Shown: one piece after another, positions 2,983-27,308 of the stretch
Layout of the letters: each line of letters starts with the position of its first letter
Numbering within the stretch: the first letter of the stretch is position 1
Source: Streptomyces sp. NBC_01116
Lineage (GTDB): Bacteria; Actinomycetota; Actinomycetes; Streptomycetales; Streptomycetaceae
DNA: 64,000 bases
Assembly (NCBI RefSeq): GCF_041435495.1
Contig: NZ_CP108644.1
Location: 8,417,501-8,481,500, forward strand
Direction: 5' to 3'
The notes under the pieces: model-generated
What the model was told of the DNA's origin: nothing
What the model saw: the letters and a program-made list of their open reading frames with translations, nothing else
Database searches by the model: none
Position numbers and translations under genes: made by a program

Positions 2983-4119
2983 ATGCGACTGCACGTCGAC
3001 CAGCGCCACGAGCGGGTGCTCGAGCTCGTCCGCGAGCGCGGCAGTCTGCGCGTCGCCGAACTCGCCGAGGAGCTCGGCATGTCCGCCGTCACCCTGCGCC
3101 GGGACGTCGAGGCGCTGGCCGCCCAGGGCCTCGTGGAGCGGCTGCACGGTGCGGTGGTGTGGCCCACCGGGCAGTCCCGGCCGGCTCCGGCCGCCGCGCC
3201 CCCCGCCGAAGGACTGGTGGTGGGCATGGTGGTGCCGACCACCGAGTACTACTACGCGGACGTCGTGCGCGGCGCCCGGCAGACCGTCGAGGCCGCGGGC
3301 GCCCGGCTGACGATCGGGCTCTCCCGCTACCTCCCCGACGAGGACGCCGCCCAGGCCCGCCGGCTGCTGTCCACCGGTGCCGACGGACTCCTGCTGACGC
3401 CGAGCTGGGAGCGCGGCTGCCCGGAGCGGGGTGAGGGGCTGTGGACGGTGGAGCAGGAGGTCCCGGTCGTCCTGGTGGAGCGCTCGGCGCCCCTCGGCCA
3501 TCCGGCGGCGGGCCTGGACCGGGTGCGCTCGGACCACGCGCACGGCGCCGCCGAGGCGGTGGCGCACCTGGCCGGGCTGGGGCACCGGGCGATCGCGCTC
3601 GCCGTGCAGGACAGCCCGACCGCTCCCCGGCTCCGGGTCGGATACCGGGCCGCCGTGGAGGCCCTGGGGCTGACCCCGGTGTCGGCCGCGCCGCTGGACG
3701 ACGCCTCGTCGCGTTCGGAGGCGAAGCGGTTCGAGCGGACCCTGGAGTACCTGTGCGAGGCCGTGGCGAGCGGCAACGTGACCGCCGCGATCGTGCACAG
3801 CGACGCGGACGCGATCGTCCTCATCCCGCGGCTCCAGGCGCGGGGTGTGCGGGTGCCGGAGGACCTCGCGGTGATCGCCTACGACGACGAGGTCGCCGGA
3901 CTCGCCGACCTGCCGCTCACCGCCGTGGCCCCGGACAAGCACGCCGTGGGAGCCGCCGCCGCCCGGCTCCTGTTGGACCGCCTCGGCGTGGCGGCGCCGG
4001 GCGCGAAGGACGCGAGGGCGGGGGAGGCGGCCCGGGGCCCGGGGGCCCGCCGGCACCTGGACATCCTGCCCACCCTGCGGATCCGGGTCTCCTGCGGGGC
4101 GGTCGCAGCCGCCCCCTGA
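2983..4119 (+). CDS. Transcriptional regulator: DeoR-type HTH with LacI-type sensor domain
   Basis: A 378-residue DNA-binding regulator. Residues 1-60 form a DeoR-like winged helix (RHERVLELVRERGSLRVAEL followed by GMSAVTLRRDVEAL). From about 75 there is a periplasmic-binding-protein-like LacI/GalR sensor domain (GLVVGMVVPTTEYYYADVVR, later VIAYDDEVAGLADLPLTAVA). The start at 2983 is preferred because AGGGGGA lies 5 bases upstream and the protein then begins directly at the HTH. It is divergent from the polysaccharide lyase and followed by the ABC operon, so it likely controls this locus in response to a sugar or sugar phosphate. The mix of DeoR head and LacI body is known in actinobacteria. 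Ligand unknown. Confidence 0.85.
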   Translation: MRLHVDQRHERVLELVRERGSLRVAELAEELGMSAVTLRRDVEALAAQGLVERLHGAVVWPTGQSRPAPAAAPPAEGLVVGMVVPTTEYYYADVVRGARQTVEAAGARLTIGLSRYLPDEDAAQARRLLSTGADGLLLTPSWERGCPERGEGLWTVEQEVPVVLVERSAPLGHPAAGLDRVRSDHAHGAAEAVAHLAGLGHRAIALAVQDSPTAPRLRVGYRAAVEALGLTPVSAAPLDDASSRSEAKRFERTLEYLCEAVASGNVTAAIVHSDADAIVLIPRLQARGVRVPEDLAVIAYDDEVAGLADLPLTAVAPDKHAVGAAAARLLLDRLGVAAPGAKDARAGEAARGPGARRHLDILPTLRIRVSCGAVAAAP

Positions 4120-4230
4120 CGGAGGAAGTGCCGCGCCAGGAGCCGTGTCCGGGGTCAACAGGCCCTGCGGGTACGGCTCTTCGCGTGTCCGGACGGCGAC
4201 GGTTCGGCGCCGGGACTCCAATTCGGAGAT

Positions 4231-4243
4231 GATCGATTCGATT
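4231..4243. promoter_or_regulatory. Operator-like repeat GATCG-ATT-CGATT
   Basis: Third copy of the GATCG-N3-CGATC element, one mismatch in the right arm, lying 18 bases upstream of the -35-like hexamer of the ABC transporter operon. It links this operon to the lyase/regulator control region. Confidence 0.48.
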
Positions 4244-4260
4244 GATTTGGTCATTTGCTC

Positions 4261-10850: not shown

Positions 10851-13800
10851 TCATGAACTCCAGGGGCGTCGGGTGAACATGTCCGGGCCGATGGTGCGGG
10901 TGAGCAGATGCAGGGGCGCTGCGCGGACGCCGGTCGCCTCCGCCGCTTCCCAGTAGGCCAGTCCGGTGGCCGCGTCGACCGTGCCGTGGACGAGCGGTAC
11001 GTCGGCCCCCGAGGCCTGGAGCAGGGACTCCAGCCGGCAGGACGCGACGGTGTCCGGCACCATCGGCTGCGCGAGGTATCCGGCCACCGCGGCGGCCGGG
11101 AGGCCCTCGGCCACCCGCCGCTCCGCCGGGCCGGCGCTCAGCAGCCCGCCGCCCACGACCAGAACGTCCTTCGCCCGTTCCATCCGGCCGATGGCGCGGG
11201 ACGTGTCGAAGCAGTGCGGGAACGAGTCGTCGACCACCGTCGTACCCGGTGCCAGGCGGTCGATGTCCAGGAGTGCGCCGCCCCCGCTGACCGCCGCGAC
11301 GATCAGGCGGGCGTCGTACACGGCGTCGGGCAGCCCATGGTCGGACTCGGCCGACTCGACCACCTCCACGATCTCCACGAGGCCGCGTTCCAGCAGGTTC
11401 TCGGCCAGTTCCTTCAGCCGTGGCCCGCTGCCCGGCACGTCGCAGAGCAGCAGCCGGGCAGGCGGCCGTTGGGCCCTGGTGAGCAGCAACTCCAGCGAGG
11501 AGGAACCGATCGAGCCGAGCCCCACGAACGCGACGGTGAGAGCTTCCAGGTGCTGCCCGGTCGCGCCGAGAGCCGCGTGTACGGTGCTGACGACGGAAAC
11601 GACGGTCGCCGCGTGACCGGTGGTGACGACGGGCGCGGTGGTGACGACGGGCCCGTTATCCGCACTGCCGACGGCCCGCAGGACGTCGAAGCCGTAGCCC
11701 GTGAGCGAGGGGATCATGCCCGCCAGGGAAACGGCCCGCGCACCGAGGGACGAGGCGAGCTCCATTCCCCGCGTGGTGTGCCCGACCAGGGCGTCGCCGG
11801 GGGAGAGTTCGTCCGCGAACAGCGGGACGCACACGAAGCCCGAACCGCCCAGCGGCGTCGTCAGGGTCTCCAGCAGCCGTGGCCGCCCGTCCGGGAACAG
11901 CAGGTTCCGCACCTGCTCGCGCGGCAGCGCCTCCTCGGGCAGACCTGCCAGCCGGGCGAGGTCGGCCGGGGACGGCAGATACCCGATGAGCGCGGCGTCC
12001 AGCGGAGCGTCGAGGCCGGGGCCGTCCGGGTCGCCGAGGCGATCGGGGCCGGGCCGGGGTGCGGCCACCGCGTGCGCCAGCGTGACGCGCATCGAGTCCG
12101 TGAAGGCCGTCAGCCCCTCCTCGGTGAACGCGGTCGCCGCCGCGCGGACGGTGATTCGCAGCCGCCCGCCGTCCGGAACGGCCGCCAGGAACACGTCCGT
12201 ACCGGCCGGTGGCGGGGTGTACACACTGTCGCCGCTCTCCCGGGTGACCGCCAGTGTCCTGCCGCTCTCCGGACCCAGGGCGGAGAAGTCCAGATAGGTG
12301 AAGAAGAACTGCGAGGCCATGGGCAGGCCGTTGGACAGCGCCGGCACGGCCCCCTCGTACGCCCGCGCCTCGGCGGCCTCGGCGGCGACGCGCCGCAGAT
12401 CGTCCTCGAAACCCGCGCTGTCGGACCGCCTCGACGCCGGACCCGCCGGCCGCAGGGGAACGGCCGTGGCGAAGGGACCGAACACCCGGTGTGCGTCGGG
12501 CAGGGAACGGTCCCGGCCGCTCACCGCGAGACCGAGTACCAGATCCGGCCGTCCCGTGGCGGACACGAGGGCCCGGTAGTAGGCGGTGAGCACCGGGGCG
12601 TGGAGGGTGCACCCGGTGCGCGCCGCGAGCTCGCGGAGCGCCGCCACCTGGTCGGCGTCGACCGTGAACCCGCAGGTGCGGAAGAGCGGGCCGGCGTGGC
12701 TGCCCGGAGGGGAGCCGGTGGTGGTCGTCCCGGCGGCGAGCACGGGCGGCCGGTAGGGCGCCCTCAGCCGCGCCCACCGGTCCGCACCGGTCGGGGCGGT
12801 GGGCGTGTCCGTGCGCTCCGCGAGCCGGAGGGCGTGGTCGCGGAAGGAACTGCGCAGGGGGGCCGGGGCCGGTTCCTCGCCGCTGGACAGGGCGTCGTAC
12901 ACGGCCGTCAGCTCCCGTACCAGGAGGGCGGCGCTGTAGCCGTCGCCGATGATGTGGTGGGCGTGTGCCACCAGGACGTGTTCGTCGGGTGCGACGGTGA
13001 GCACCCGCAGGCGCAACAGGGGCCACGCCCAGGGTTCGAAACGGCGGGCCCGTTCGGCGGTGATCCGCTCCTCCACCTGCTCCGGGTCGGTGAGGGTCTC
13101 GAAGTCGACCGGCAGGCGCAGCGAGGACGGAAGCTCCTGCTGGACGGGCGGGCGCGCCCCGGCGGGGAAGACGGTACGGAGCATCGGGTGGCGCCCGACG
13201 AGCGTGTCCACCGCGCCCTGGAAGCGGGCGGTGTCGAGGCGGCCGTGCAGACGCAACCGCGTGAGCCAGGAAGAGGTCGCGCCCGGTGCGATGGCTTCGG
13301 CGAGGAGGAAGCCCCGCTGGGTGGGAGTGAGCGGGAAGGGCGGGGGAGCGGCGGCCGGATCGAGCGTCCCGGTGCGGCCACCGACCGCGTCGCCTTCCCG
13401 GGGCGACGCGTCCGCTGCGGCGTCAAGGGCGTCAGAGGCGTCCACAGCCTTCGGAGCGTCCACGCCGACACCCGTGGCATCCGTGGCATCCGTGGGGTCC
13501 GTGGCGTCCGTGGGGTCCGCGGCGGTGACCTCTGCCGCGTCCACCGCGGAAGCGAGGGCCGCGAGTGTGCGGTTGCGGTAGATGACGGTCGGCCGGGGGA
13601 GCGGACCTCCCTGCTTCTCCAGCCGGGCGAACACTTCCAGCACGAGAAGGGAGTCGCCGCCCAGGACGAAGAAGTCGTCCTCGCGGGACACGCCGTCGGC
13701 CTGGAGCAGGGTGGACCAGATGGCGGCCAGCCGTACTTCGGTGGGAGTGCGGGGCGGTGTACGGACGTCGCCCGCGCGCACGCCGCTGCCGGTGTCCGTG

Positions 13801-16800
13801 TGCGTCCCGTGCGGTTCGGTCGCTTCCTGGAGTGCGGGGAGCCCACGTCGGTCGATCTTGCCCGTGCTGGTGAGCGGCATCCTGTCGACACGGGTGATCC
13901 GGGACGGAAGCATGTACGCGGGCAGAGACTCCGCGAGATGGAGCCGGAGCGCCACGGCATCCGCTCCGGAGGACGCGGGCCCCGGTGTCACGAAGGCGGT
14001 GAGGCGTCCGTTCTCGGCGAGGACGACGGCGTGGGTGACGTCCGGGTGGGTCTGGAGCACCGCCTCGATCTCGCCCGGCTCGACACGGTTGCCCCGGATC
14101 TTCACCTGGTCGTCCAGCCGCCCGAGGAATTCCAGTACGCCGTCCTCGGAACACCGCACCCGGTCGCCGCTGCGGTACCACCGGCGACCACGCCGCACCG
14201 TGAACGCGGCCTCGGTGAGGGCCGGTTCGCCGAGGTAGCCCGCGGTGAGGCCGACTCCGGAGATGAGGAGCTCACCGGGCTCGCCGGGCCGCGCGGGCTC
14301 TCCGTCGGGGCCGACGACCTCCACCTCCGTGCCCGAGACGGGACGGCCGATGGGAAGCCGCCGCACCTGGTCGCCGGGCCGGGCCCGGATGATGTGGCAG
14401 CTCGTGTTGATGGTGGCCTCGGTCGGGCCGTACAGGTTGGCGATGTGCTGGCCGTCGCCGAAGAGGTCGAACCAGCGGCGTACATGGGCGGGTGACAGGG
14501 CCTCGCCGCCGACATGGATCCACCGGAGCGCGGTCAGGTCCGGCACCGGCGCGCCGTTGCGTACGCGTTCCTCGGAAGCGCCGAGGAGCTGTTCCCAGAG
14601 CGTGGGGACGGAGCTCCAGACGGTGATCCCGCTGCGTACGACGTGGGTCAGCAGCCGGTCGGGATCGCGCAGCAGGTCCCAGGCCACGGTGACCACGGTG
14701 GCGCCGACGAGCAGCGGGGCGAGGAGCTGGCGGACGGAGGCGTCGAAGCAGGGCGACGCGGTCTGGGCGAGCCGGTCGCGCTCGGTGTATCCGAAGGTGT
14801 CGATCGCCCAGTCGAGGTAGTTCTCCATCGACCGATGGGTGATGGGCACGGCCTTGGGGCGGCCGGTGGATCCGGAAGTGAAGATCACGTAGGCGATGTC
14901 GTCGGCGACGACCGGGCCGTCGGGTGCGGGCAGTCCGTCCGGCGACGGAACGGAAACGGCGACCCGGTCCGGGCCTCCGGCAGGCTCGGAACCCGCGCCC
15001 CTGGAAGGCGGCGCCGAAGCGTCGACGAACACCAGGGCGACGTCGCCGAGCGCTTCCCCCACGGCACGGGTGGCGTTGTGGCAGAGCACCGTACGGGCGC
15101 CCGAGCGCGTGAGCTGGTCCGTCAGCCGTGCGGTCGGGTGGCCGGCGTCCAGCGGGACCCAGCCCGCCCCGGCGCGCAGGACCGCGACGACCGACACGAC
15201 GGTATCGGCGCCGGGTTCGGTGAGAAGCCCGACGAGGCTTCCCGGGGTGACGCCGCGGGCCAGGAGAGTGGTCGCGAGGACGTGGGAGGCACGGTCGAGT
15301 TCGGCGTACGTCAGGGTGGTGGAGCCGCTGTCGACGGCGACCGCGCCCGGAGTGGCCCGGAACCGCTCGACGAGCCGACGCACGATCGTGGCGGAGGCGG
15401 AGGCGGGTGCGGGGGCGGAACCGTCGTTGGTGCCGGTGCCGGTGCCGGTGCCGTGGACTGGCAGGGGCTCCGTGACGGCCGGGGCGTCGGGCCGAGGCTC
15501 GACGAGTGCGGCCAACTCGTCGTGGAAGTCCCGGTCCAGGCGTGCCACCGTCGCCGGGTCGAAGAGCCGGACGGGGAAGTTCCACGAGAAGCGCAGCACC
15601 GCCTCGTCCTGCCAGCACAGCAGGCTCAGACGGGTCGCGGCGGTGGCGGTGCCGGCCGCGGTCGGCCGCACGCTCACCGGGCAACGCCCGTCGAGAGCGG
15701 CGGGGAAGCGCGAGAAGCTGAAGCCGGCCGGGCTCACGGTCCGGGGGCCGGACCCGGACGGCTCCGACGGCAGCAGCCGGGCCAGGTCCAGGCCGGTGAG
15801 GCTCGCGTGTCGCTCGCTCTCCAGCCAGATCCCCGCCAGCCGCCCGGCGAGCGCCTCCACCGACTCGTCCGGGTCCGTCCGGCAGAGCAGCGGAAGGGTG
15901 TCGGCGAGCGGCCCCACGAGCCGGTCCAGGCCCGCCAGGCGATCGTCCCGCCGGGCGCGGGCGACGTTCACCGCGATCGCCCGCTGCCCGCTCCACCGGG
16001 CCAGACAGCGTACGTGCACGGCGAGCAGCAGATGGAAGAGGCTCACCCCGTGAGCGGCGGCCCGCCTCGTCAACGCGGCGGTCAGCACCGGGTCGAGGGC
16101 ACTCTGACGCGTGGTCATCGGCGCCGCGGGCAGGGCGGAGGGATCACCGTCGTACGGCAGTCGCAGCGGTTCGCCCAGGGATTCCAGCCGCCCCGACCAG
16201 TACCGCCGGTCGGCGGCGAGGGCCCTCACCCCGTCCACGGAGGACCGCTCGTCGGAGGTGGCCGCAGCGTACCGGGCGAAGTCGGTGCCGAGCGCGGGCG
16301 GCGTCGGTGTCTGCCCGTCGGCGAGGGCGGTGTACAGCGACCAGAGTTCCCCGGCGAGGACGTTGAGGCTGTATCCGTCACCGGCCGCGTGGTGGATGAC
16401 CAGGACCAGATGGGACAACTCCGGGTTCTCCCGGGCGAGGAGCGCGCGCACGGGAGGCTCGGCGGAGAGGTCGAACGGCCGGTTGCACAGGGCCTTTTCG
16501 AGCTCCTCGATGCGGCCGCTCAGTTCGCGGACCTCGTACCAGTCGGACAGCGCGGCGGGCGGCGCGACGTACTGCGCCGGCGTCGCCGAGCCGATCCCGT
16601 CCCGCATCCCGTCGTCGGTGCTTCCGGTTCCGGTGCTTCCCGCGCTTTCGATGCGGATCCGGAGCATGCTGTGCCGGTCGGCGAGCGCGGTGAGCGCCCG
16701 GCCCAGGAGCCGGCTGTCCAGGGGGCCCCGGACGGTCTGGCGGACGTAGCCGTGGGCCGGGATGTCCGGGTGGAGCCGACTGCTGGTGTGCAGGGCGAGT

Positions 16801-19800
16801 TGGACGGGGGTGAGCGGGAAGGCGACCCCGTCCGGCGCGGGAGTCGCGGCGGGCGGGAGGGCGCGGGTGGAGTCGGCCGACGGTGCGGGGGAGGGTGTGG
16901 AGTCGAGGTGCGCGGCCAGTTCGGCGATCGTCCGGTACTCGAAGAAGAGCGTGGCGGGCAGCGGCCTGCCCAGCTCCCTTTCGAGCTGCCTGACGAGGTC
17001 GACGGCGGCGAGCGAGTCCAGGCCGAGGGCGAGGAACGGTTCGTCGTCGAGGACCCCGGCGGCAGGCAGACGCAGCGCCGAGGCCAGCAGCCGCCGAAGC
17101 AGCGGCGCGGTGCCGGTACGGGGTCCGGCGCCCGCGCCCGTACTGCTGTCCACCATCGTGCCGATGTGGGGGGCCCGGCCCGAGGGCGCCGGTTCCGTGC
17201 GGGATTCCGTTCCGGGTTCCGTTCCCGTGGATTCCGTCGGCGGGATCGCGCCCGCCGTGCCCGCGGGTCCCGGGGGCGGTGTGAGGTCGGCGATCAGCAG
17301 CTGCGCCGCGTCGATGCCGCACGCCGTACGGAGCGCCGCCAGCGCGGGACCGAGGGCAACGGACCGTCCCCCGGGGCTCCGCACGGTGGCGGAGGCGCCT
17401 CCCGCCCCGGTTCCGAGGGCCGCCGCCATGCCCGTCCCGGTGAGGGCCGCGAGGTTCACCGACTGCCAGGGCTTGCCGGCGTGCCGTTCCGACGCGGCGA
17501 ACGCGTCGAGGAAGGCGTTGGCCGCGGCATAGTCGCCCAGGGCTCCCGCCAGGCCGGGCAGCGCGGCGCTGACGGAGGAGAACGCGACACGGACCGCCGG
17601 GTCGAGCCCGTGCCGGCGCAGGGCCAGCGAGAGCAGCAGACTGCCCCGGGTCTTGGCGGCCAGCGCTTCCGCCGTCTCCTCCGCGCGCCTGTTGCGGAGG
17701 GTCCCTGGCCGCACTGCCCCCGCGGCGTGGAAGAGGCCGTCGAGGCGGGGCAGTCCGGCGAGCAGTGCGTCGACGTCCTGCTCCACCGAGACGTCGGCCA
17801 CGCGGTAGTGGACGGTGGCGCCCAGCGAGCGGAGTTCCTCCGCCAGTCCTGCGGGAGGACGGGGGGAGCGCCCGGCGAGTACGAGGGTGGGGCTGCCCCG
17901 GCCGGCGAGGTCCCGGGCGAGCGCGGCGCCGACTCCGCCACCGCCCCCGGTGATGAGGAAGGTGCCGTCGGCCGGCAGCGGTGACCGCGTCGCCCAATCC
18001 GGTGCTGTCGAGCCGCTCGTCAGCGGTGCGAAACGGCGGGTGAGCCTCCGCCCCGCGCGCCAGGCCACGGTGGCGACCGTGCCCGGCGTGCCGGCGCCCG
18101 ATTTCAGTTCGGTCAGTTCGGCCAGCACGGAGGTGAGGCGCTGGGCCGGGGTGTCCAGTGAGCAGAGGTCGAGGGCGGTGGCAGCGGCGCCCGGAGTCTC
18201 CTGCGGCAGCGCCAGCAGGAGCCCGCCGAGCACGGCGTGGGCCGGCCGGGGCCTCTCCCGCACGGCCCCCGTGGCGTGGACGTCCTCGGTCAACACCAGC
18301 AGCCGGTCCGCGCGTGCCTCGTCGAACCGTGCGAGGGCCTCGCCGAAGGCGGCCAGCGAGGCGTCCTGGGCCCGGCCGAGCGCGTCGGCGGTGTCCTGGA
18401 CGGGAGCGGGACCGGCCACCAGGACCACGGCATCCGGCGGCCCGTCGCCCGCTTCGTACATCCGGACACCCTCGGCGGAGAGCTGCGAGGCCAGCCGGTC
18501 GACGTACGCGGAGTCGGGCCCTGTCAGCAGCACCGAACGCACGGTCGCCGCTGCCGCTGCCGCTGCCGCTGTCGTTGCGGGCAGGGCGGCGTCCTCCCAC
18601 AGGACCTGGTGCAGCAGAGGGCTCGCGGGGGGATCGGCCCAGTAGCGGCTGCGCTGGAAGGGATACGTGGGCAGAGGAATCCGCTGGTGCTCCGCGTCGA
18701 GCGCGGTGCGGTCCAGCGGCACGCCGTGCGACCACAGGCGGCCGATGGTTCCGAGCAGGGCCCCGCGCCCGCCGTGCCCGTCGTCGGGGAGCCGCTCCGC
18801 GTCCGTGCGGCCGTCGGAACGTCCCGGAAGGGCGCACACCACGATCGTTGCGTCGCTGGACAAGCTGGATGTACTGGACGTACCGGACCCGGCGGAGGTG
18901 GTGGGCGTACTGGACGTTCCAGCTCCGCCGACGCGTTCCACCGCTATGCCGGCCGCGTACGCCTCCGTCGTCGCGCGGGCCGCACCCGACAGGGTCGCGC
19001 CGTGGCCGATCTCCACGAACGTGTCGTACCCCTCCCGGGCCAGCCGCTCCACGGCCGCCCCGAACCGCACCGGACGCTCGGCGTGGTCACGCAGGTACTC
19101 CGGGCCGAGGACCGGCTGCCACTCGGCGGTGACGGTGCTCAGGAGGGGAACGGACGGCACCTGCGGGTCCAACGCACGGGCCGCGTCGGCGAGCCGGTCG
19201 GCGACCGGCCGCATCAGCGGTGAATGGAAGGCCCGGGAGACCCGCAGCCGACGCGTGGGGAAGCCCAGCCCTTCGAGGTCGGCGGCGGCGCGCTCCACCG
19301 CACGGACGCCCCCGGAGAGGACCTGGAGCCCCGGACCGTTGTACGCGGCCACGGCGAGCGCCCCGTCGGACTCCACCACCGCCGCGGCGACGGCCTCCTC
19401 ACCCCCGCGCACGGCGATCATGGCTCCAGGCTCGGTGAACGCGCCCATGAGACGGCCGCGTTCGGCTGCGAACCGCACCGCCTCCCCGAGAGTGAGCACC
19501 CCGCTGACACACGCGGCGGTGATCTCCCCGACGCTGTGCCCGGCCACCGCGTCCGGCTCCACGCCCCAGGTGCGCAACTGACGGGCGAGAGCCACCCCGG
19601 AGGCGACGAGGAGCGGCTGCGCCACCTCGGTCGCGGCCTGCGCGGCGGGGTCCGCTTCCAGGTCCAGCGCCCAGTCCAGCAGGGGCCGCCCGTACACCGG
19701 ACCGAGCAGCGCGGACGCCTCGTCGAGCGTGTCCCGGAACACCCGGGCCGTCCGGTACAGCGCCAGGTCCTGGGCGGGGAACTGCGAACCCTGCCCGGGG

Positions 19801-22800
19801 AACAGGAAGACCACGCGCGGCCGGGAGCGGACGAGGCTCCCGACCTGCCCGCCCGCCACTCCCGTTCCCGCGGCGGCGATGGCGGAGAGCCGGTCCCGCA
19901 GGTCACCGTCGGCGATGACGGCGAGCCGGTGGGGCCCATCGTCCCGGGACGTGCTCGCGGTTCGGCAGACGTCGCCCTCGCGCAGAAGCGGACGGCTTTC
20001 CAGGTGCGCGGCGAGCCGGGCCACGGAGTCCCGCAGCGCGCCCGCGCTGCGCGCCGACAGCGTCAGCAGGTGAGGCCCTTCGGCCGCGACTTCACCCGCG
20101 ACACCCGTCGACCGGGCAGCTGGGACGGCAGGGACAGCCGAGGCGGCAGGGACTGCCGAGACAACCGGGGACGCCGGGGGCGGGGCCTGTTCGAGGACGG
20201 CATGGGCGTTGGTGCCGCCGAAGCCGAACGCGTTGATCCCCGCGACGAGGGGCTCGGCGGACGTCCAGTGCCGTGCCTCGGCCACCACGGTGAAACCTGC
20301 GGCGGCGAGGCCAGGAGAGGCTGGGGAGTGGTGCAGCGACGGCGGGAGCCTGCGGTGGCCCAGCGCCAGCACGACCTTCACCAGCGCGGGCAGTGCCGCG
20401 GCGTTCAGCAGATGCCCGATGTTGGTCTTCACCGAACCGAGCAACCGCGGTTCGCCGTCGGGTAGTCCGGGAAAGGCGTGGGCCAGCGAACGCAGCTCGA
20501 TCGGGTCCCCCACGGCCGTGCCGGTCCCGTGGGCCTCCACATAGCTCACCGAGGCGGGATCGACGCCCGCCGCCTCGTACGCCCGGGTGATGACCTCCCG
20601 CTGCCGCAACGGGTTGGGCGCCATGAGGCTCATCGACCGGCCGTCGTTGTTGACGGCCGTGCCCCGGACCACCGCGAGCACCGGATCGCCATTCAGGTGG
20701 GCGGCGTCGAGGCGCGTCAGGACGATGGCCGCGCCGCCCTCGCCGGGCACGAAGCCGTCGGCGTCGGAGCTGAAGGCGCGGCTGCGCCCGGTGGGGGAGA
20801 GGGCCCCCGCTTCTTCCAGCAGCCGGTGCGGGGCCGAGGTCAGGTGGAGGTTGACCCCGCCGATGACGGCGAGGTCGCACTCGCCGTCCAGGAGGCTGCG
20901 CCGGGCCAGGTGCAGAGCCACCAGGCCCGACGAGCAGGCCGTGTCCACCGCGAGCGCGGGACCGTCGAGGTCGAGACTCTGCGAGACCCGGGCGGCGACG
21001 AGGGCCGGCAGGTTTCCGGTGAGCACCCCGGGCAGCGGGGAGCCGTAGCCCGAGGCCCGCTCCAGGACTTCCCGATAGCCGCTGTCCCCGACCGCCGCGA
21101 ACACACCGATCCTGCGACCGCGTCGGCGGGGCCCCGCGTATCCGGCACGTTCGAGGGCCTCGTGCGCGAGTTCCAGGAAGAGCCGGGCCTGCGGGTCGAG
21201 TGCGCGTGCCTCGTCCTCGCCGATGCCGAAGTAGCCGGGGTCGAAAGCGGCCGGATCCTCCAGGAGCGCAGCCCATCGCTTCCGGGGAACTGCCGGAGTC
21301 ATCGGTGTTGCCGGAGCCGCCGGAGCCGAACCCGGTCGGGCATTCGGAAGGTCCTGGCCGTCGTCCCATCGTCCACGTGGTACGGGGGCGACGGCGTCGT
21401 GCCCGTCGACGAGCAGCTCCCAGAAGTCCTCGGGGCTGTCGGCGCCGGGGAACCGGCAGGCCATCCCGATGACGGCCGCGGCGGTGGCGGCACCCTGGGG
21501 CCCGGTCGCGCCCACCGCGGCCGTTCCTCCGGTCCGCCGAGGGCCGCTCTCCAAGGTTTCCGCATCGGAGGCTCCCGTACCTGGCGTCACTGGACCGGGC
21601 ACCACCGTCAGAAGGTGACCGGCCAGCGCGGCCACCGTGCCGTGGTCGCGGATGACCGCCGGCGGCAGTGTCACACCGAAGGCGTCCTCCAGCGCCACCA
21701 GCACCTCCATGGCCTTGAGCGACGTCCCTCCGAGGCTCCCGAACGGCTCGTGCGCCCCGATCGACCCGGCGGGCCGCCCCAGGACCCGTGCCCACGCATC
21801 CCGCACGATCTCGACGGTCTCCGCCCCGCCCCGGGGCGCCGTCGTGGGAGGTTCCGCCGCAGGCCGTGCGGATTCCGCCGGACCGGTCACGGCAGACGCG
21901 CTGCCACCTCCGTCACCCGCGGCGCCCTTCCCCGCCTCCGGCTCACCGGCCCGCCGCTCACCCGACCCGAACGCGCCCTCCTCGAAACGCTCCCGCAGCC
22001 GCCGACGTTGCAGCTTGCCGCTCGTCGTACGCGGAAACGCGCCCGGCGGCACGGCCAGCACCCGCACATCGTCGTGGAGCAGGGCCTCGCGCACCCGGGC
22101 CGCGACGCGTTCGAGTACGTCCGCAGCCTCGCTCGCGGGCCGTGCCCAGGGGACGAACACCACGACGCGCTCAGCACCGGTGACCGGGTCGGTCGACCCG
22201 ACCACCGCCGGGGTGCCGGGAGGGAGTCCGGGCGTCGCGGCCGCGACCTCCTCCATGTCCGTGGCGTGGAAGGTGCGGCCGTTGAGGAACAGCACGTCCT
22301 TGTGCCGGCCCGTGACGCACAGTCGGCCGTCGCGCAGGAACCCGAGATCACCGGTGCGGAGCCATCCCCCGGCGAACACCTCCGCGCTGACGTCGGGAAG
22401 ACGGTGGTAACCACGGGCCAGTTGGGGGCCGCTGACCATGATGTGCCCGGTCCGCCGGTCTCCGAGGACGGTGCCCGCGTCGTCGACGATGCGCACGGCG
22501 CAGCCGGCCACCGGCCGCCCGACGTCCATCAACTCGACGGCCCCATCGCCCGGTTCGGCGTCCACCGCCACGCCGCGGCTCAACGACGCCCGGTCCAGGA
22601 CCAGGGGCTCGGCCACCTCCCCCGGCGGCGGGAAGGTCACCGCCAGCGTCGCCTCCGCCAGGCCGTAGACCGGCTGGGCCGCCGCTGGGTCCAGCCCCGA
22701 AGGCCGGGTCTTGTCGGCGAAGGCACGCCACACCGCGGGCGCGATCGGCTCCGCCCCGACCAGGACCAGCCGCACGGCAGAGAGGTCCAGCCGGGCCAGG

Positions 22801-23588
22801 ACCTCGTCGGGAACACGGCGTACGGCCAGTGCCAGGGCGAAGTTGGCGGCGGACAGCACCGTGGCCCGGTGCCGGGCCGCCACCTCGAACCACAGGCGGG
22901 GCCTCTTGGCGAACGACAGCGGACCGATCTTGACCTGCCGGGCCCGGGCGGCCAGCGGAGCGAGATGGGTGCCGATCAGCCCCATGTCGTGGAAGTACGG
23001 CATCCAGCTGACCACCACGTCGTCGGGGCCCAGCGCCGAAGCGGCCCGTATCTGCTCCAGATTGGCCAGCACCGCGCCGTGCGTCACCTCCACCCCCTTG
23101 GGCGCACCGGTGCTCCCCGAGGAGAACTGCACGAACGCGACGTCGTCGGGCCCGGCGGTGACAGGCTCCCGCAGGACGGGTCCCTCCCGAAGGACATCGA
23201 GGGTCAGGGTGCGTACGGCGCCCGGGAGTTCACCGGTCAGCGACGCCGTCGAGGCGTCCACGACGACGGGCGGCCGCCCCAGGTGCTCCCAGACCGGCAG
23301 CACCCGACGGGCGTCCGGCGCCAGCGGGACCGGAACGAGACCGGCCGCCACCGCACCCCAGAACATCGGCTGGAAGTCCTCGCTGCGGTCGGCGAGCAAC
23401 GGGACACAGGTCCCGGGCGCGACTCCTGCCTCCCGGAAGCCTCCGGCCACGCGCAGGGAGTCGTCCAGGAGCTCGCGCAGGCCGACCGTCAACTCGCCGC
23501 CGTCGCCGCGGACATGCACGACGACCTGCCCGGGAGCCTCACGGACCGCGTCCAGCAGTACATCCAGCAATGTCATGTCGTGTTCCAC
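10851..23588 (-). CDS. Hybrid PKS-NRPS megasynthase FAAL-ACP-KS-AT-KR-ACP-C-A-PCP-C-AAR-like
   Basis: A 4,245-residue assembly line. Domains by motif: fatty acyl-AMP ligase 1-530 (SGSTGAPK 157-164); ACP1 about 595-665 (Ser623); KS about 705-1133 with Cys885, His1020, His1059; AT about 1255-1545 with Ser1352 in GHSVGE and AFHS (His1455), the malonyl-CoA signature; KR about 1650-2055 with TGGGGGVG and Tyr2020; ACP2 (Ser2192); C1 with HHAAGDG 2399-2405; A about 2730-3245 (SGSTGRPK, LYGPTEATIN); PCP (Ser3313); C2 with HHIIGDG 3544-3550; and a C-terminal domain from about 3865. That last part resembles cyanobacterial acyl-ACP reductase: IGYLPS start, GLGSIG nucleotide loop near 4022, and Cys4184 where AAR has its thioester cysteine. 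There is no DH, ER, thioesterase or carrier after C2. Expected product: a beta-hydroxyacyl amino acid released perhaps as aldehyde or alcohol. My reading of the A code (D-A-R-S-I-V-L-I-N) matches nothing I know. Start could also be ATG 23576, which has a GGA about 9 bases upstream. The gene stands alone, with no transporter or PPTase beside it. Confidence 0.92.
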   Translation of the reverse strand: MEHDMTLLDVLLDAVREAPGQVVVHVRGDGGELTVGLRELLDDSLRVAGGFREAGVAPGTCVPLLADRSEDFQPMFWGAVAAGLVPVPLAPDARRVLPVWEHLGRPPVVVDASTASLTGELPGAVRTLTLDVLREGPVLREPVTAGPDDVAFVQFSSGSTGAPKGVEVTHGAVLANLEQIRAASALGPDDVVVSWMPYFHDMGLIGTHLAPLAARARQVKIGPLSFAKRPRLWFEVAARHRATVLSAANFALALAVRRVPDEVLARLDLSAVRLVLVGAEPIAPAVWRAFADKTRPSGLDPAAAQPVYGLAEATLAVTFPPPGEVAEPLVLDRASLSRGVAVDAEPGDGAVELMDVGRPVAGCAVRIVDDAGTVLGDRRTGHIMVSGPQLARGYHRLPDVSAEVFAGGWLRTGDLGFLRDGRLCVTGRHKDVLFLNGRTFHATDMEEVAAATPGLPPGTPAVVGSTDPVTGAERVVVFVPWARPASEAADVLERVAARVREALLHDDVRVLAVPPGAFPRTTSGKLQRRRLRERFEEGAFGSGERRAGEPEAGKGAAGDGGGSASAVTGPAESARPAAEPPTTAPRGGAETVEIVRDAWARVLGRPAGSIGAHEPFGSLGGTSLKAMEVLVALEDAFGVTLPPAVIRDHGTVAALAGHLLTVVPGPVTPGTGASDAETLESGPRRTGGTAAVGATGPQGAATAAAVIGMACRFPGADSPEDFWELLVDGHDAVAPVPRGRWDDGQDLPNARPGSAPAAPATPMTPAVPRKRWAALLEDPAAFDPGYFGIGEDEARALDPQARLFLELAHEALERAGYAGPRRRGRRIGVFAAVGDSGYREVLERASGYGSPLPGVLTGNLPALVAARVSQSLDLDGPALAVDTACSSGLVALHLARRSLLDGECDLAVIGGVNLHLTSAPHRLLEEAGALSPTGRSRAFSSDADGFVPGEGGAAIVLTRLDAAHLNGDPVLAVVRGTAVNNDGRSMSLMAPNPLRQREVITRAYEAAGVDPASVSYVEAHGTGTAVGDPIELRSLAHAFPGLPDGEPRLLGSVKTNIGHLLNAAALPALVKVVLALGHRRLPPSLHHSPASPGLAAAGFTVVAEARHWTSAEPLVAGINAFGFGGTNAHAVLEQAPPPASPVVSAVPAASAVPAVPAARSTGVAGEVAAEGPHLLTLSARSAGALRDSVARLAAHLESRPLLREGDVCRTASTSRDDGPHRLAVIADGDLRDRLSAIAAAGTGVAGGQVGSLVRSRPRVVFLFPGQGSQFPAQDLALYRTARVFRDTLDEASALLGPVYGRPLLDWALDLEADPAAQAATEVAQPLLVASGVALARQLRTWGVEPDAVAGHSVGEITAACVSGVLTLGEAVRFAAERGRLMGAFTEPGAMIAVRGGEEAVAAAVVESDGALAVAAYNGPGLQVLSGGVRAVERAAADLEGLGFPTRRLRVSRAFHSPLMRPVADRLADAARALDPQVPSVPLLSTVTAEWQPVLGPEYLRDHAERPVRFGAAVERLAREGYDTFVEIGHGATLSGAARATTEAYAAGIAVERVGGAGTSSTPTTSAGSGTSSTSSLSSDATIVVCALPGRSDGRTDAERLPDDGHGGRGALLGTIGRLWSHGVPLDRTALDAEHQRIPLPTYPFQRSRYWADPPASPLLHQVLWEDAALPATTAAAAAAAATVRSVLLTGPDSAYVDRLASQLSAEGVRMYEAGDGPPDAVVLVAGPAPVQDTADALGRAQDASLAAFGEALARFDEARADRLLVLTEDVHATGAVRERPRPAHAVLGGLLLALPQETPGAAATALDLCSLDTPAQRLTSVLAELTELKSGAGTPGTVATVAWRAGRRLTRRFAPLTSGSTAPDWATRSPLPADGTFLITGGGGGVGAALARDLAGRGSPTLVLAGRSPRPPAGLAEELRSLGATVHYRVADVSVEQDVDALLAGLPRLDGLFHAAGAVRPGTLRNRRAEETAEALAAKTRGSLLLSLALRRHGLDPAVRVAFSSVSAALPGLAGALGDYAAANAFLDAFAASERHAGKPWQSVNLAALTGTGMAAALGTGAGGASATVRSPGGRSVALGPALAALRTACGIDAAQLLIADLTPPPGPAGTAGAIPPTESTGTEPGTESRTEPAPSGRAPHIGTMVDSSTGAGAGPRTGTAPLLRRLLASALRLPAAGVLDDEPFLALGLDSLAAVDLVRQLERELGRPLPATLFFEYRTIAELAAHLDSTPSPAPSADSTRALPPAATPAPDGVAFPLTPVQLALHTSSRLHPDIPAHGYVRQTVRGPLDSRLLGRALTALADRHSMLRIRIESAGSTGTGSTDDGMRDGIGSATPAQYVAPPAALSDWYEVRELSGRIEELEKALCNRPFDLSAEPPVRALLARENPELSHLVLVIHHAAGDGYSLNVLAGELWSLYTALADGQTPTPPALGTDFARYAAATSDERSSVDGVRALAADRRYWSGRLESLGEPLRLPYDGDPSALPAAPMTTRQSALDPVLTAALTRRAAAHGVSLFHLLLAVHVRCLARWSGQRAIAVNVARARRDDRLAGLDRLVGPLADTLPLLCRTDPDESVEALAGRLAGIWLESERHASLTGLDLARLLPSEPSGSGPRTVSPAGFSFSRFPAALDGRCPVSVRPTAAGTATAATRLSLLCWQDEAVLRFSWNFPVRLFDPATVARLDRDFHDELAALVEPRPDAPAVTEPLPVHGTGTGTGTNDGSAPAPASASATIVRRLVERFRATPGAVAVDSGSTTLTYAELDRASHVLATTLLARGVTPGSLVGLLTEPGADTVVSVVAVLRAGAGWVPLDAGHPTARLTDQLTRSGARTVLCHNATRAVGEALGDVALVFVDASAPPSRGAGSEPAGGPDRVAVSVPSPDGLPAPDGPVVADDIAYVIFTSGSTGRPKAVPITHRSMENYLDWAIDTFGYTERDRLAQTASPCFDASVRQLLAPLLVGATVVTVAWDLLRDPDRLLTHVVRSGITVWSSVPTLWEQLLGASEERVRNGAPVPDLTALRWIHVGGEALSPAHVRRWFDLFGDGQHIANLYGPTEATINTSCHIIRARPGDQVRRLPIGRPVSGTEVEVVGPDGEPARPGEPGELLISGVGLTAGYLGEPALTEAAFTVRRGRRWYRSGDRVRCSEDGVLEFLGRLDDQVKIRGNRVEPGEIEAVLQTHPDVTHAVVLAENGRLTAFVTPGPASSGADAVALRLHLAESLPAYMLPSRITRVDRMPLTSTGKIDRRGLPALQEATEPHGTHTDTGSGVRAGDVRTPPRTPTEVRLAAIWSTLLQADGVSREDDFFVLGGDSLLVLEVFARLEKQGGPLPRPTVIYRNRTLAALASAVDAAEVTAADPTDATDPTDATDATGVGVDAPKAVDASDALDAAADASPREGDAVGGRTGTLDPAAAPPPFPLTPTQRGFLLAEAIAPGATSSWLTRLRLHGRLDTARFQGAVDTLVGRHPMLRTVFPAGARPPVQQELPSSLRLPVDFETLTDPEQVEERITAERARRFEPWAWPLLRLRVLTVAPDEHVLVAHAHHIIGDGYSAALLVRELTAVYDALSSGEEPAPAPLRSSFRDHALRLAERTDTPTAPTGADRWARLRAPYRPPVLAAGTTTTGSPPGSHAGPLFRTCGFTVDADQVAALRELAARTGCTLHAPVLTAYYRALVSATGRPDLVLGLAVSGRDRSLPDAHRVFGPFATAVPLRPAGPASRRSDSAGFEDDLRRVAAEAAEARAYEGAVPALSNGLPMASQFFFTYLDFSALGPESGRTLAVTRESGDSVYTPPPAGTDVFLAAVPDGGRLRITVRAAATAFTEEGLTAFTDSMRVTLAHAVAAPRPGPDRLGDPDGPGLDAPLDAALIGYLPSPADLARLAGLPEEALPREQVRNLLFPDGRPRLLETLTTPLGGSGFVCVPLFADELSPGDALVGHTTRGMELASSLGARAVSLAGMIPSLTGYGFDVLRAVGSADNGPVVTTAPVVTTGHAATVVSVVSTVHAALGATGQHLEALTVAFVGLGSIGSSSLELLLTRAQRPPARLLLCDVPGSGPRLKELAENLLERGLVEIVEVVESAESDHGLPDAVYDARLIVAAVSGGGALLDIDRLAPGTTVVDDSFPHCFDTSRAIGRMERAKDVLVVGGGLLSAGPAERRVAEGLPAAAVAGYLAQPMVPDTVASCRLESLLQASGADVPLVHGTVDAATGLAYWEAAEATGVRAAPLHLLTRTIGPDMFTRRPWSS

Positions 23589-24358: not shown

Positions 24359-24691
24359 CTACGCGCCGGTCGGGGCGGCCTGCTGCACGACCTCGAAGGA
24401 CCACACCGTGGACCCGCTGGCCGCCGGCTGGGGGCGCTCGGCGCTCCCGGCGCCGCCGCCGCCCTGATGGGCCGCCTTCATCGGCCCCTCCATCCACGCC
24501 TGGAAGGAGGCCTCGTCACGCCAGCGCGTGTAGACGAGGTAGTCGTCCGTGCCCTCGACGGGCCGGAGCAGCTCGAACCACTCGAATCCGTCGGAGCCCT
24601 CCACGGCATGGGCCCGGGAAGCGAAGCGCTTCTCCAGCGTCTCGCGTTGTTCCTGGGGGACGGTCAGCACATTGATCTTGACTACGCTCAT
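24359..24691 (-). CDS. Antibiotic biosynthesis monooxygenase (ABM) domain protein
   Basis: A 110-residue single-domain protein with the dimeric ferredoxin-like ABM fold: INVLTVPQEQRETLEKRFAS at the N-terminus and the GFEWFELLRP and YLVYTRWRDEASFQAWM segments. Family members include quinone-forming monooxygenases and heme-degrading (IsdG/MhuD-like) enzymes as well as proteins of unknown role. The ATG overlaps the TGA of the histidine kinase gene (ATGA), so it is third in a regulator-kinase-ABM operon, an unusual partner for a two-component system. The C-terminal 25 residues are Gly/Ala/Gln-rich. Confidence 0.8.
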   Translation of the reverse strand: MSVVKINVLTVPQEQRETLEKRFASRAHAVEGSDGFEWFELLRPVEGTDDYLVYTRWRDEASFQAWMEGPMKAAHQGGGGAGSAERPQPAASGSTVWSFEVVQQAAPTGA

Positions 24692-25812
24692 GGCTCCATC
24701 CTGCCGTACGACGTCCGGACTCCGTCGGCGGGCGGGGCTGTCGCGGGAAGTTCCACCGTGATGCGGATCCCGCCCTCCGCGCGCGGGGCGAGAGTGAGCG
24801 TTCCGTCGTGTGCGCGGGTGATGGTCTGCACGATGGCCAGGCCGAGGCCGACGCCCGCGTGGTGGGTGCGCACCCGTTCGGCGCCGCGCCGGAACGGTTC
24901 GGTGAGCGTCGAGGCCAGCTGGGGGGTGACCTTCGCGCCGGTGTTCTCGACCGTGAGCACCGCGGTCCCCCGGTGGACGCCGGTGGTGACCCGGACAGTG
25001 CCGCGTTCGGGCAGGTTGTGGACGATCGCGTTGTGCACGAGGTTCGTCGTCAGCTGGAGCAGGAGCGCCGGAGATCCGATCGCGAGGGCGACCTCGGCGT
25101 CCGTCTCGACGGTGACGCCCTGCTCCTCCGCGAGGGGAAGGAGGGTCTCGGTGGCCTCTTCCGCCAGCAGTGACAGGTCGACGCGTTCCCGGGCGAAGGA
25201 ACGCCGGTCGGCGCGGCTGAGCACGAGCAGCGCCTCGGTGAGGTCGATCGCCCGGCCGTTGACGGTGTACAGGCGGTCGATGATCTCGTCGGTGTCGCGG
25301 TCCGGATCGGTGCGGGCCACCTCCAGAAGAGCCTTCGAGATCGCCAGCGGGGTCCGCAGTTCGTGGGAGGCGTTGGCCGCGAACCTCTCCTGCTCGGCGA
25401 CGTCTGCTTCGAGCCGGGCGAGCATCGTGTCGAACGCGTCGGCGAGCTCCCGGAACTCGTCCCTGCGGCCCGGCAGCCGGATCCGGTGGGCGAGCGACCC
25501 GCGCGTGGCCTCGCGGGTGGCCTCGGTGATCCGGGTCAGCGGGGCGAGCATACGGCCGGCGAGGACCCATCCTCCCAGGAGTCCGAAGACGAGAAGGACC
25601 GCCAGCACGGTGGCGGCCGCCGGGGCGAACGTGTACGCGAGGAGCTGGCGGTTGGGGTTCTCGTGGAGCATCCGCTTGTCCCAGTCGTCGGGAACGTACT
25701 CCAGGAGGAACACCCACACCGCCGTGAGCAGCAGGACGCCGGCGACCATGAGGAACCCGGCGTAGCTGAGGGTGAGCTTGAGGCGGACGCTCAACCCGGG
25801 CCGCCTAGCCAC
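24688..25812 (-). CDS. Two-component sensor histidine kinase
   Basis: A 374-residue membrane kinase. Two membrane helices (about 14-38 and 57-85) frame a very short outer loop of about 20 residues. A HAMP domain follows, then the H box NASHELRTPL with the phospho-acceptor His150, the N box (NLVHNAIVHN) and the G box GVGLGLAIVQ. The GTG at 25812 overlaps the end of the response regulator gene by eight bases. The tiny outer loop suggests that it senses something in the membrane rather than a large extracellular ligand. Its genes are divergent from vanY-like and vanJ-like genes, so a VanS-like envelope-stress role is plausible (inference from context). Confidence 0.87.
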   Translation of the reverse strand: MARRPGLSVRLKLTLSYAGFLMVAGVLLLTAVWVFLLEYVPDDWDKRMLHENPNRQLLAYTFAPAAATVLAVLLVFGLLGGWVLAGRMLAPLTRITEATREATRGSLAHRIRLPGRRDEFRELADAFDTMLARLEADVAEQERFAANASHELRTPLAISKALLEVARTDPDRDTDEIIDRLYTVNGRAIDLTEALLVLSRADRRSFARERVDLSLLAEEATETLLPLAEEQGVTVETDAEVALAIGSPALLLQLTTNLVHNAIVHNLPERGTVRVTTGVHRGTAVLTVENTGAKVTPQLASTLTEPFRRGAERVRTHHAGVGLGLAIVQTITRAHDGTLTLAPRAEGGIRITVELPATAPPADGVRTSYGRMEP

Positions 25813-26503
25813 GGTCCGCTCCCTCACCGGTACCGGTGCCGGACGCCGGGGCGATGCGGTAGCCGACGCCCGGCACGGTGGCGATGATCCACGGTTCGCC
25901 GAGGCGCTTGCGCAGGGCCGAGACGGTGATGCGTACGGCGTTGGTGAACGGGTCGGCGTTCTCGTCCCACGCGCGTTCCAGAAGCTCCTCGGCGCTGACG
26001 ACACCGCCGTCGGCGGCCACGAGGACATCGAGCACCGCGAACTGCTTTCTGGTCAGAGCGACGTAGCGGCCGTCCCGGTAGACCTCCCTGCGGAACGTGT
26101 CCAGCCGCAGCCCCGCGATCTCCCGCACGGGGGGCCTGCTGTGGGCGCGTCTGCGGTCGAGCGCTCTGAGCCTGAGCACAAGCTCCCGGAGGTCGAAGGG
26201 CTTCGTGAGGTAGTCGTCGGCGCCGAGCCCGAACCCGGAGGCCTTGTCGTCGAGGCGGTCGGCCGCCGTGAGCATGAGGATCGGCAGGCCACTGCCGGAG
26301 GCGACGATGTGTTCGGCGATCTCGTCGCCGGACGGCCCGGGGATGTCGCGGTCCAGGACGGCGATGTCGTAGGTGTTGACGCTCAGCATTTCCAGAGCGG
26401 TGTCCCCGTCGCCCGCGATGTCCGCGGCGATCGCTTCGAGACGCAGGCCGTCGCGGACGGCCTCCGCGAGATAGGGCTCGTCCTCGACGATCAGCACGCG
26501 CAT
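25805..26503 (-). CDS. OmpR/PhoB-family response regulator
   Basis: A 232-residue DNA-binding response regulator. The receiver has the acidic pair Glu8/Asp9, phospho-acceptor Asp51 and Lys101 (LTKPF); the C-terminal winged helix ends in the usual VPGVGYRI. It is the first gene of the operon with the kinase and the ABM protein. It is divergent from the vanY-like gene with only 86 bases between, so it likely controls both directions. Confidence 0.9.
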   Translation of the reverse strand: MRVLIVEDEPYLAEAVRDGLRLEAIAADIAGDGDTALEMLSVNTYDIAVLDRDIPGPSGDEIAEHIVASGSGLPILMLTAADRLDDKASGFGLGADDYLTKPFDLRELVLRLRALDRRRAHSRPPVREIAGLRLDTFRREVYRDGRYVALTRKQFAVLDVLVAADGGVVSAEELLERAWDENADPFTNAVRITVSALRKRLGEPWIIATVPGVGYRIAPASGTGTGEGADRG

Positions 26504-26589
26504 GGTTCGATGCTACGAGTCGCCACCTATCGTCGGCGTATCGAAAACCGCATACGGGTCGGCAACACCGCGCCGCCTTGACTGGCGGT

Positions 26590-27285
26590 ATGACTCGACC
26601 ACCTCCGTCAGCGCGAACCACACCCCGCCGGACGCGCGGGCCCCTCGTCGTCGGTGCGGTGTCCGTCGTGGCAGCGATCGCGACGGCCCTCGGCCACGCC
26701 CTGCTGAACCCCTCACCTGTCCCGTCGCCCTCGGCCTCGGTCTCCGCCTCGCCGCGCTTCCCGTCCGCCGATCCCTCCTCGGCGCCGGCACCTCTAAAGC
26801 CTCCGCTCCACCGTGAGCTCGGTGGAGCGCTGGGAGAGGCCGACGGGGCCGTCCCCGACGGCGTGACGGTGCTCGACGACGGGATCCCGGCCGTCGCCAA
26901 CCTCGACCCGGATCTGCTCCCGGCCCTCCGCCGGGCGGCACGGGAGGCGGCGCGGGACGGCGTCGAGTTCGTCGTCAACAGCGGCTGGCGATCACCGGAA
27001 TATCAGGATCAGCTGCTCCGCAAGGCGATCGCGCGGTACGGGTCCGAGGCCGAGGCCGCCCGCTGGGTGGCCACCGCGAAGACGTCGCCGCACGTGTCGG
27101 GGGACGCGGTCGACATCGGACCGGCGGACGCGACGGAGTGGCTGTCCGAGCACGGCGCGGGATACGGGCTGTGCCAGACCTACCGGAACGAACCCTGGCA
27201 CTACGAACTGCGCACGGAAGCGATCGACCGGGGTTGCCCGCGCATGTATGCCGACCCCACCCAGGACCCGAGGATGCGAAAGTGA
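26590..27285 (+). CDS. VanY-like D,D-carboxypeptidase (peptidase M15), membrane-anchored
   Basis: A 231-residue protein that should remove the terminal D-Ala from peptidoglycan stem peptides. One N-terminal membrane helix (about 17-38) is followed by a Ser/Pro linker. The zinc site of the M15B family is complete: His168 and Asp175 in SPHVSGDAVD, and His204 in EPWHYE. ATG 26590 is preferred; a TTG at 26578 is in frame, and neither has a strong ribosome site. It overlaps or abuts the vanJ-like gene (GTG at 27282 overlaps its stop). In glycopeptide resistance VanY trims pentapeptides that end in D-Ala, which fits the two-component genes next door. Confidence 0.87.
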   Translation: MTRPPPSARTTPRRTRGPLVVGAVSVVAAIATALGHALLNPSPVPSPSASVSASPRFPSADPSSAPAPLKPPLHRELGGALGEADGAVPDGVTVLDDGIPAVANLDPDLLPALRRAAREAARDGVEFVVNSGWRSPEYQDQLLRKAIARYGSEAEAARWVATAKTSPHVSGDAVDIGPADATEWLSEHGAGYGLCQTYRNEPWHYELRTEAIDRGCPRMYADPTQDPRMRK

Positions 27286-27308
27286 CCGGCAGCGAGCGAG
27301 GACGGACG

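Follow-up and report, generated by a model that had tools for sequence, protein, structure and literature searches.

The cyanobacterial assembly lines of carmabin A, the vatiamides, and hectoramide B yield products with primary carboxamide ends (PMC10949194). In case of the vatiamide and hectoramide lines, a terminal domain situated after the peptidyl carrier domain (PCP) is thought to amidate the chain and may have a relative in the carmabin A line; the mechanism of this terminal amidation is called unstudied in the same work (PMC10949194). By description, these "amidotransferase" domains of VatR (vatiamide) and HcaD (hectoramide B) are C-terminal NRPS release domains that act without a thioesterase (PMC10949194). 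The cyanobacterial carmabin NRPS also ends in a domain of this kind, for which solved structures exist (9e4s, 9e4u, 9e4x, 9e50, and 9e56). The PDB titles of 9e4x and 9e4s read "TAD from Carmabin Biosynthetic Pathway" and leave the acronym unexpanded; "terminal amidation" is our reading of PMC10949194, and the carmabin TAD itself presumably releases a carboxamide. The TAD entries contain NAD, NADH, and, in 9e56, a disulfide between Cys2238 and dephospho-CoA.

The acyl-ACP reductase (AAR) of Synechococcus elongatus (SeAAR, Orf1594; 6jzq, 6jzu, 6jzy, and 6jzz) is a free-standing, NADPH-specific enzyme with an established mechanism, in which Cys294 carries the acyl group for reduction by hydride; the phosphate of NADPH is bound by residues R189, R193, and R314 (PMC7089970). 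A further AAR-superfamily, reductase-like domain with an equivalent Cys is the N-terminal domain of PigE from the prodigiosin pathway (4ppm), which is fused to an aminotransferase and not to an NRPS. SDR-type R domains of NRPSs are likewise terminal and provide NAD(P)H-linked release. A Cys acyl-enzyme is not known from R domains.

Gene and domain order of the megasynthase

The window analysed here comprises 64,000 nucleotides of Streptomyces sp. NBC_01116 and contains a megasynthase gene on the minus strand (10851..23588), which encodes 4245 amino acids in a single uninterrupted frame of 4,245 codons. Pfam reported FAAL/AMP-binding, three PP-binding, KS, AT, KR, two Condensation, and a second AMP-binding match. 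Together with comparison to relatives, this gives the order FAAL-ACP-KS-AT-KR-ACP-C-A-PCP-C-X, with X standing for the terminal TAD-clade domain. Carrier serines, the KS triad, the GHSxG of the AT, the KR motifs, and both condensation HHxxxDG motifs were all found intact in a motif check.

All domains are given in minus-strand coordinates. The loading domain is of the FAAL (fatty-acyl-AMP-ligase) type (residues ~1-540, 21969..23588; AMP-binding in Pfam, PRK07768/PRK09192 in NCBIfam) and is followed by the first acyl carrier domain with GGTS (residues ~590-665, 21594..21821; PP-binding in three stretches and motif position). The PKS part consists of a ketosynthase with Cys-His-His present (residues 705-1086, 20331..21476; N- and C-terminal ketoacyl-synt matches), an acyltransferase with GHSVGE (residues 1260-1552, 18933..19811; Acyl_transf_1), a ketoreductase (residues 1875-2049, 17442..17966; KR and motifs), and the second acyl carrier domain with GLDSL (residues 2164-2228, 16905..17099; PP-binding). 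In the NRPS part, the condensation domain C1 carries HHAAGDG (15519..16826; Condensation in two stretches), the adenylation domain matches AMP-binding and AMP-binding_C (13857..15365), and the PCP carries GGDSL with Ser3313 (13539..13742; PP-binding). A flexible linker of ~65 residues directly follows the PCP. The second condensation domain, C2, has the motif HHIIGDG and lies between the PCP and the release domain (12057..13334; Condensation at residues 3419-3844), its nearest solved sequence being PvdL. The specificity pocket of the adenylation domain reads D-A-R-S-H-G-L-I-N-K, with the last K assumed, and is conserved within the megasynthase family; it resembles no code that could be assigned to a substrate.

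The terminal domain covers residues ~3857-4245 plus the stop codon (10851..12020). No thioesterase was matched by Pfam anywhere in the 4,245 amino acids, and the last ~400 amino acids match no Pfam family, NAD_binding_4 included (up to E 10). An NCBIfam thioester-reductase match at E<=1 and a GxTGFLG motif are both absent from the terminal domain, which sets it apart from SDR-type R domains. The absence of both common release types, as stated in the original prediction, is thus borne out by Pfam and NCBIfam.

Beside the megasynthase gene, at 24688-28463 of the window, a VanS-O/VanR-O-like two-component pair is encoded together with a VanY-like short protein and a VanJ-like protein, a gene set that resembles glycopeptide-response loci. 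A sugar-metabolism cluster is situated on the opposite side.

The terminal domain among TADs and acyl-ACP reductases

The carmabin TAD chains 9e4x and 9e4s are the nearest solved relatives of the terminal domain by sequence (E 4e-35). A profile of 36 homologous domains (A1) matched the carmabin TAD at E 1e-55 and reached more distant relatives, namely PigE at E 5e-8 and the SeAAR entries 6jzz, 6jzu, and 6jzq at E 5e-5. An AlphaFold model built from the 36 rows of A1 (pLDDT 85) aligned to the carmabin TAD with Z 44.6 and rmsd 2.2 over 360 residues at ~29% identity. All five TAD entries gave Z 44, the SeAAR entries Z 27 over 316-324 residues, and the other dehydrogenases in the structural list, acting on amino acids and hydroxyacids, Z about 14 or less. 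Due to this gradation in Z, the domain is assigned, as judged by sequence and model, to the TAD side of the AAR superfamily.

An AAR-like tail, as first proposed, agrees in its fold with these profile and model scores and takes up the last ~390 residues. The comparison with AAR by HMM and structure, proposed at the same time, did return an AAR-like domain, with the carmabin TAD as its best match. A shikimate or ornithine dehydrogenase-like domain, named as the outcome that would speak against an AAR, was not found; this identity is rejected at Z about 14 or less, in a structural list that covers only the families appearing in it. The structural alignment begins at model residue 28, which corresponds to SeAAR residue 1, and pairs ALIGYLPS with FGLIGHLTS, in agreement with the suggested correspondence of LIGYLPS to the AAR LIGHLTS; in the sequence alignment this stretch is offset by 3.

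A family alignment of the Streptomyces-type domains, the carmabin TAD (represented in part, by chain residues 64-378), SeAAR, PigE, and free-standing relatives separates two classes. Members of the AAR class have TTGN (with few variants), GATGxIG (PigE varies), no acidic residue and usually Arg after the second Rossmann strand, and DxxxP without insert; SeAAR itself reads TTGN and GATGDIG. Members of the TAD class have TTGH, GxGSxG, an Asp ending the second strand, and a DDSxP(H/Y)C insert. In a maximum-likelihood tree, the TAD and AAR sides are split with 100/100 support, and with 100/98 after removal of the motif columns. The tree has some long branches, and only this main split is reliable. 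SeAAR and PigE fall on the AAR side; the carmabin TAD pairs closest with a Pantoea protein and not with the Streptomyces set.

The curated AAR model TIGR04058 has no match in the terminal domain at E<=1 and none in the genome; free-standing AAR-like proteins match it below its cut-off. An identity as alkane-pathway AAR is rejected, given the missing TIGR04058 match and the lack of an aldehyde-deformylating oxygenase (ADO) in the genome. Of the AAR-type release domain postulated for this PKS-NRPS, the fusion of an AAR-superfamily domain to the assembly line holds, whereas an AAR proper is contradicted by the missing TIGR04058 match, the loss of R189 and R314, and the NAD-type Asp.

In our domain, the motifs of the TAD class lie at the following minus-strand positions. 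His3992 of TTGH (11613..11615), an Asn in AARs, is invariant in A1, and TTGH occurs in 79 of 80 homologous loci. The dinucleotide loop GLGSIG (11505..11522) is present as GxGSxG in 80 of 80. Asp4050 (11439..11441), positioned after the second Rossmann strand as expected of an NAD(H)-type pocket, is invariant in 36 of 36 sequences and adjoins the position of SeAAR Arg189. The DDSFPHC motif (11211..11231), found in 80 of 80 loci, is an insertion common to TADs and absent from AARs, and its Cys4126 is likewise invariant. This block had been read as an AAR-like "DxFPxxFDT"; it is actually DDSFPHCFDT, to which DDSGPHCF of the carmabin TAD is closer than DGGYPKNLG of SeAAR.

Cys4184 (11037..11039), the predicted acyl-accepting nucleophile, aligns with SeAAR Cys294, so that its original placement at the AAR thioester-cysteine position is upheld, and with Cys2238 of the carmabin TAD. 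It is invariant and lies within (A/S)SCxxESLL in all 80 loci. By residue numbering, the Cys4184-aligned residue is the only one of the seven cysteines in the visible, aligned part of the TAD chain that fits Cys2238. As C294 carries the acyl group in AAR and the numbering matches Cys2238 in the TAD, sequence comparison places Cys4184 at the acyl-carrying site of AAR and at the site where the TAD meets the pantetheine thiol. At Cys+3, the domain shares Glu with AAR and PigE, where the carmabin TAD has Ser.

R189 of AAR is replaced by Val, Leu, or Ala and R314 by Leu, Pro, or Thr in all 36 A1 sequences, and only R193 is retained. Due to the loss of these two arginines and the crystallisation of the TAD with NAD and NADH, use of NADPH by the terminal domain appears unlikely, and NADPH as the initially suggested cofactor agrees poorly with a pocket that has an invariant Asp and lacks two of the three phosphate-binding arginines.

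Taken as a whole, the domain resembles the carmabin TAD in fold, NRPS-terminal position, nucleophile-position Cys, the four class motifs, and a cofactor site corresponding to the NAD(H)-bound structures. It differs in sequence (the ~29% identity and Cys+3) and in its setting, an actinobacterial line that unites FAAL, PKS, and NRPS in one gene, with an extra C domain between PCP and TAD. With SeAAR it has the fold, the nucleophile, and the N-terminal LIGxL in common. Hence the domain represents a cyanobacterial type of release domain, already known and structurally solved, in an actinobacterial variant, rather than the new off-loading mode that the fusion was at first taken for.

Distribution of the family and free-standing relatives

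Matches were obtained in 48 of the 296 sampled Streptomyces genomes (roughly one in six). About 40 of the 48 are strong, most of them in frames of ~4,000-4,500 codons, the rest being partial or distant. In the family-level genome sample, matches were restricted to one genus; a contig search added Nonomuraea, Microtetraspora, and a Nocardioidaceae MAG. Across the family, the adenylation code and both C motifs are conserved along with the complete architecture, and the S. fungicidicus homologue has an equal domain complement, both C domains included. Except for five short frames, C2 retains an intact HHxxGDG in the 80 homologous loci (75 out of 80). The adenylation pocket begins with D-A-R in 68 of the 80, and L-(I/V)-N follows further on in nearly all. 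Due to the conservation of the C2 motif and the pocket in these sequences, a single scaffold is the probable product of the whole family.

A conserved partner gene downstream of the megasynthase was sought among the homologous loci and not found, neighbours being common only within subclades; the megasynthase looks like a single-gene system. In L056, L066, L070, and eight related loci, a gene for a luciferase-like flavin monooxygenase is situated just downstream and possibly encodes a tailoring enzyme restricted to that subclade. Two of the 80 loci, both from draft assemblies, contain an in-frame stop inside the terminal domain (L047:10001-11125 and L062:10001-11083), owing to either sequencing error or decay. 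In the literature searched, we found no product assigned to the megasynthase family, no description of carmabin-type release in Streptomyces, and nothing relevant on acyl-ACP reductases combined with NRPSs.

Relatives of the domain also occur outside megasynthases. A free-standing TAD-like protein, 44% identical to the carmabin TAD, is encoded on plasmid pCN101 of Pantoea stewartii (L101:11686-12975), between genes for a luciferase-like monooxygenase and FAAL-type NRPSs with a KS-AT-ACP gene, and apparently acts in trans in a lipopeptide cluster. A third TAD-class branch with DDSQPYCW (L103:9707-10903 and L125:8592-9911) is encoded in small Streptomyces clusters that also carry type II ketosynthase genes and a stand-alone ACP; in case of L125, its neighbours further include a KASIII-like gene and apparently one for a glutamine-dependent NAD synthase-like protein, as read from the starts of the sequences alone. 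The 611-aa Streptomyces protein of L124 (8677-10512) belongs to the TAD class by its C-terminal half, has no Pfam match in its N-terminal part, and is encoded near an AMP-ligase-like and an FAD-oxidase-like gene. Free-standing AAR-class proteins of small-genome actinobacteria of other families (L108-L121) are AAR-like enzymes outside the cyanobacteria; those scanned stay far under the cut-off in their matches to TIGR04058 and have stronger matches to PigE.

Release chemistry

The gene would encode a self-contained lipopeptide synthase, in which the FAAL domain loads a fatty acid, one KS-AT-KR extension, probably with malonyl, gives a 3-hydroxyacyl chain, and one amino acid is attached to this chain at the last carrier. 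The acyl group would then pass from the phosphopantetheine arm to Cys4184, forming a thioester beside bound NAD(H), and the chain would most likely leave as a C-terminal primary carboxamide, either after attack of ammonia on the acyl-enzyme or via a transient aldehyde or hemiaminal with recycling of NAD(H). The AAR and TAD structures argue for the covalent capture, and the products of the related cyanobacterial lines for the amide. The aldehyde or hemiaminal route is a conjecture that would account for NAD(H) binding. For the whole scheme, i.e., a lipopeptide synthase with TAD-clade Cys release, most likely as primary carboxamide, we see roughly an even chance. Counted against the amide are the moderate identity to the TAD, the Glu at Cys+3, and the C domain between PCP and TAD, unlike in the vatiamide and hectoramide lines with their domain directly after the PCP (PMC10949194); such placement is not established as defining. 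In the neighbourhoods of the homologous loci, no amidotransferase or glutaminase gene was found conserved downstream of the megasynthase. It is tempting to speculate that an active C domain and an NADH-linked, TAD-clade Cys domain act as a pair in a redox-assisted amidation so far undescribed for Streptomyces, an idea that we put forward tentatively.

Release in the manner of AAR, with a Cys4184 acyl-enzyme and a single hydride reduction by NADH to a lipopeptide aldehyde, or a cyclic imine after condensation, agrees with the fold and Cys of SeAAR and its established acyl-Cys and hydride mechanism (PMC7089970), the Glu shared with AAR and PigE, and the intact dinucleotide loop. Opposed to it are the fully supported placement with the TADs in the tree, the missing NADPH pocket, and the lack of a TIGR04058 match; the genome also lacks an aldehyde-deformylating oxygenase, though none is needed for an aldehyde end product. 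As the pathways known to carry such a domain end in carboxamides (PMC10949194), an aldehyde is possible but not favoured, and we hold this release mode to be doubtful. The likelihood of NADH-linked amide release is no lower than that of an aldehyde formed with NADPH. In a further scheme, which is rather unlikely, C2 would add an external amine or cyclise the chain, and the TAD-like domain would not perform the primary release but act as an oxidoreductase on the product, for example by hemiaminal oxidation or imine reduction. Such a scheme is supported by the C2 motif, whose retention in 75 of 80 loci would not be expected of a vestigial domain, by the linker, which lets the PCP reach both domains, and by the amino acid and hydroxyacid dehydrogenases ranking below AAR in structure, but the invariant Cys4184 at the acyl/pantetheine-arm site of AAR and TAD indicates thioester chemistry. 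The internal stops in a few copies (L047, L062) would suit a degenerate or structural remnant, with the chain released in trans by another enzyme; with all key residues kept in 36 diverse sequences, catalytic motifs intact in 79-80 of 80 loci, and no conserved trans-acting gene downstream, this is highly improbable.

New are the host group, which comprises Streptomyces and a few further actinobacteria, the union of FAAL, PKS, and NRPS in a single gene, and the pairing of C domain and TAD. Lipopeptides are probably released here by cysteine capture as terminal amides, perhaps as aldehydes. Provided that the Streptomyces domain is functional and akin to the carmabin TAD, the way in which assembly lines form C-terminal amides could be studied with one gene in easily handled actinobacteria, with AAR, which makes aldehydes from the equivalent Cys, as a ready-made comparison, and in a megasynthase family that is common in Streptomyces.
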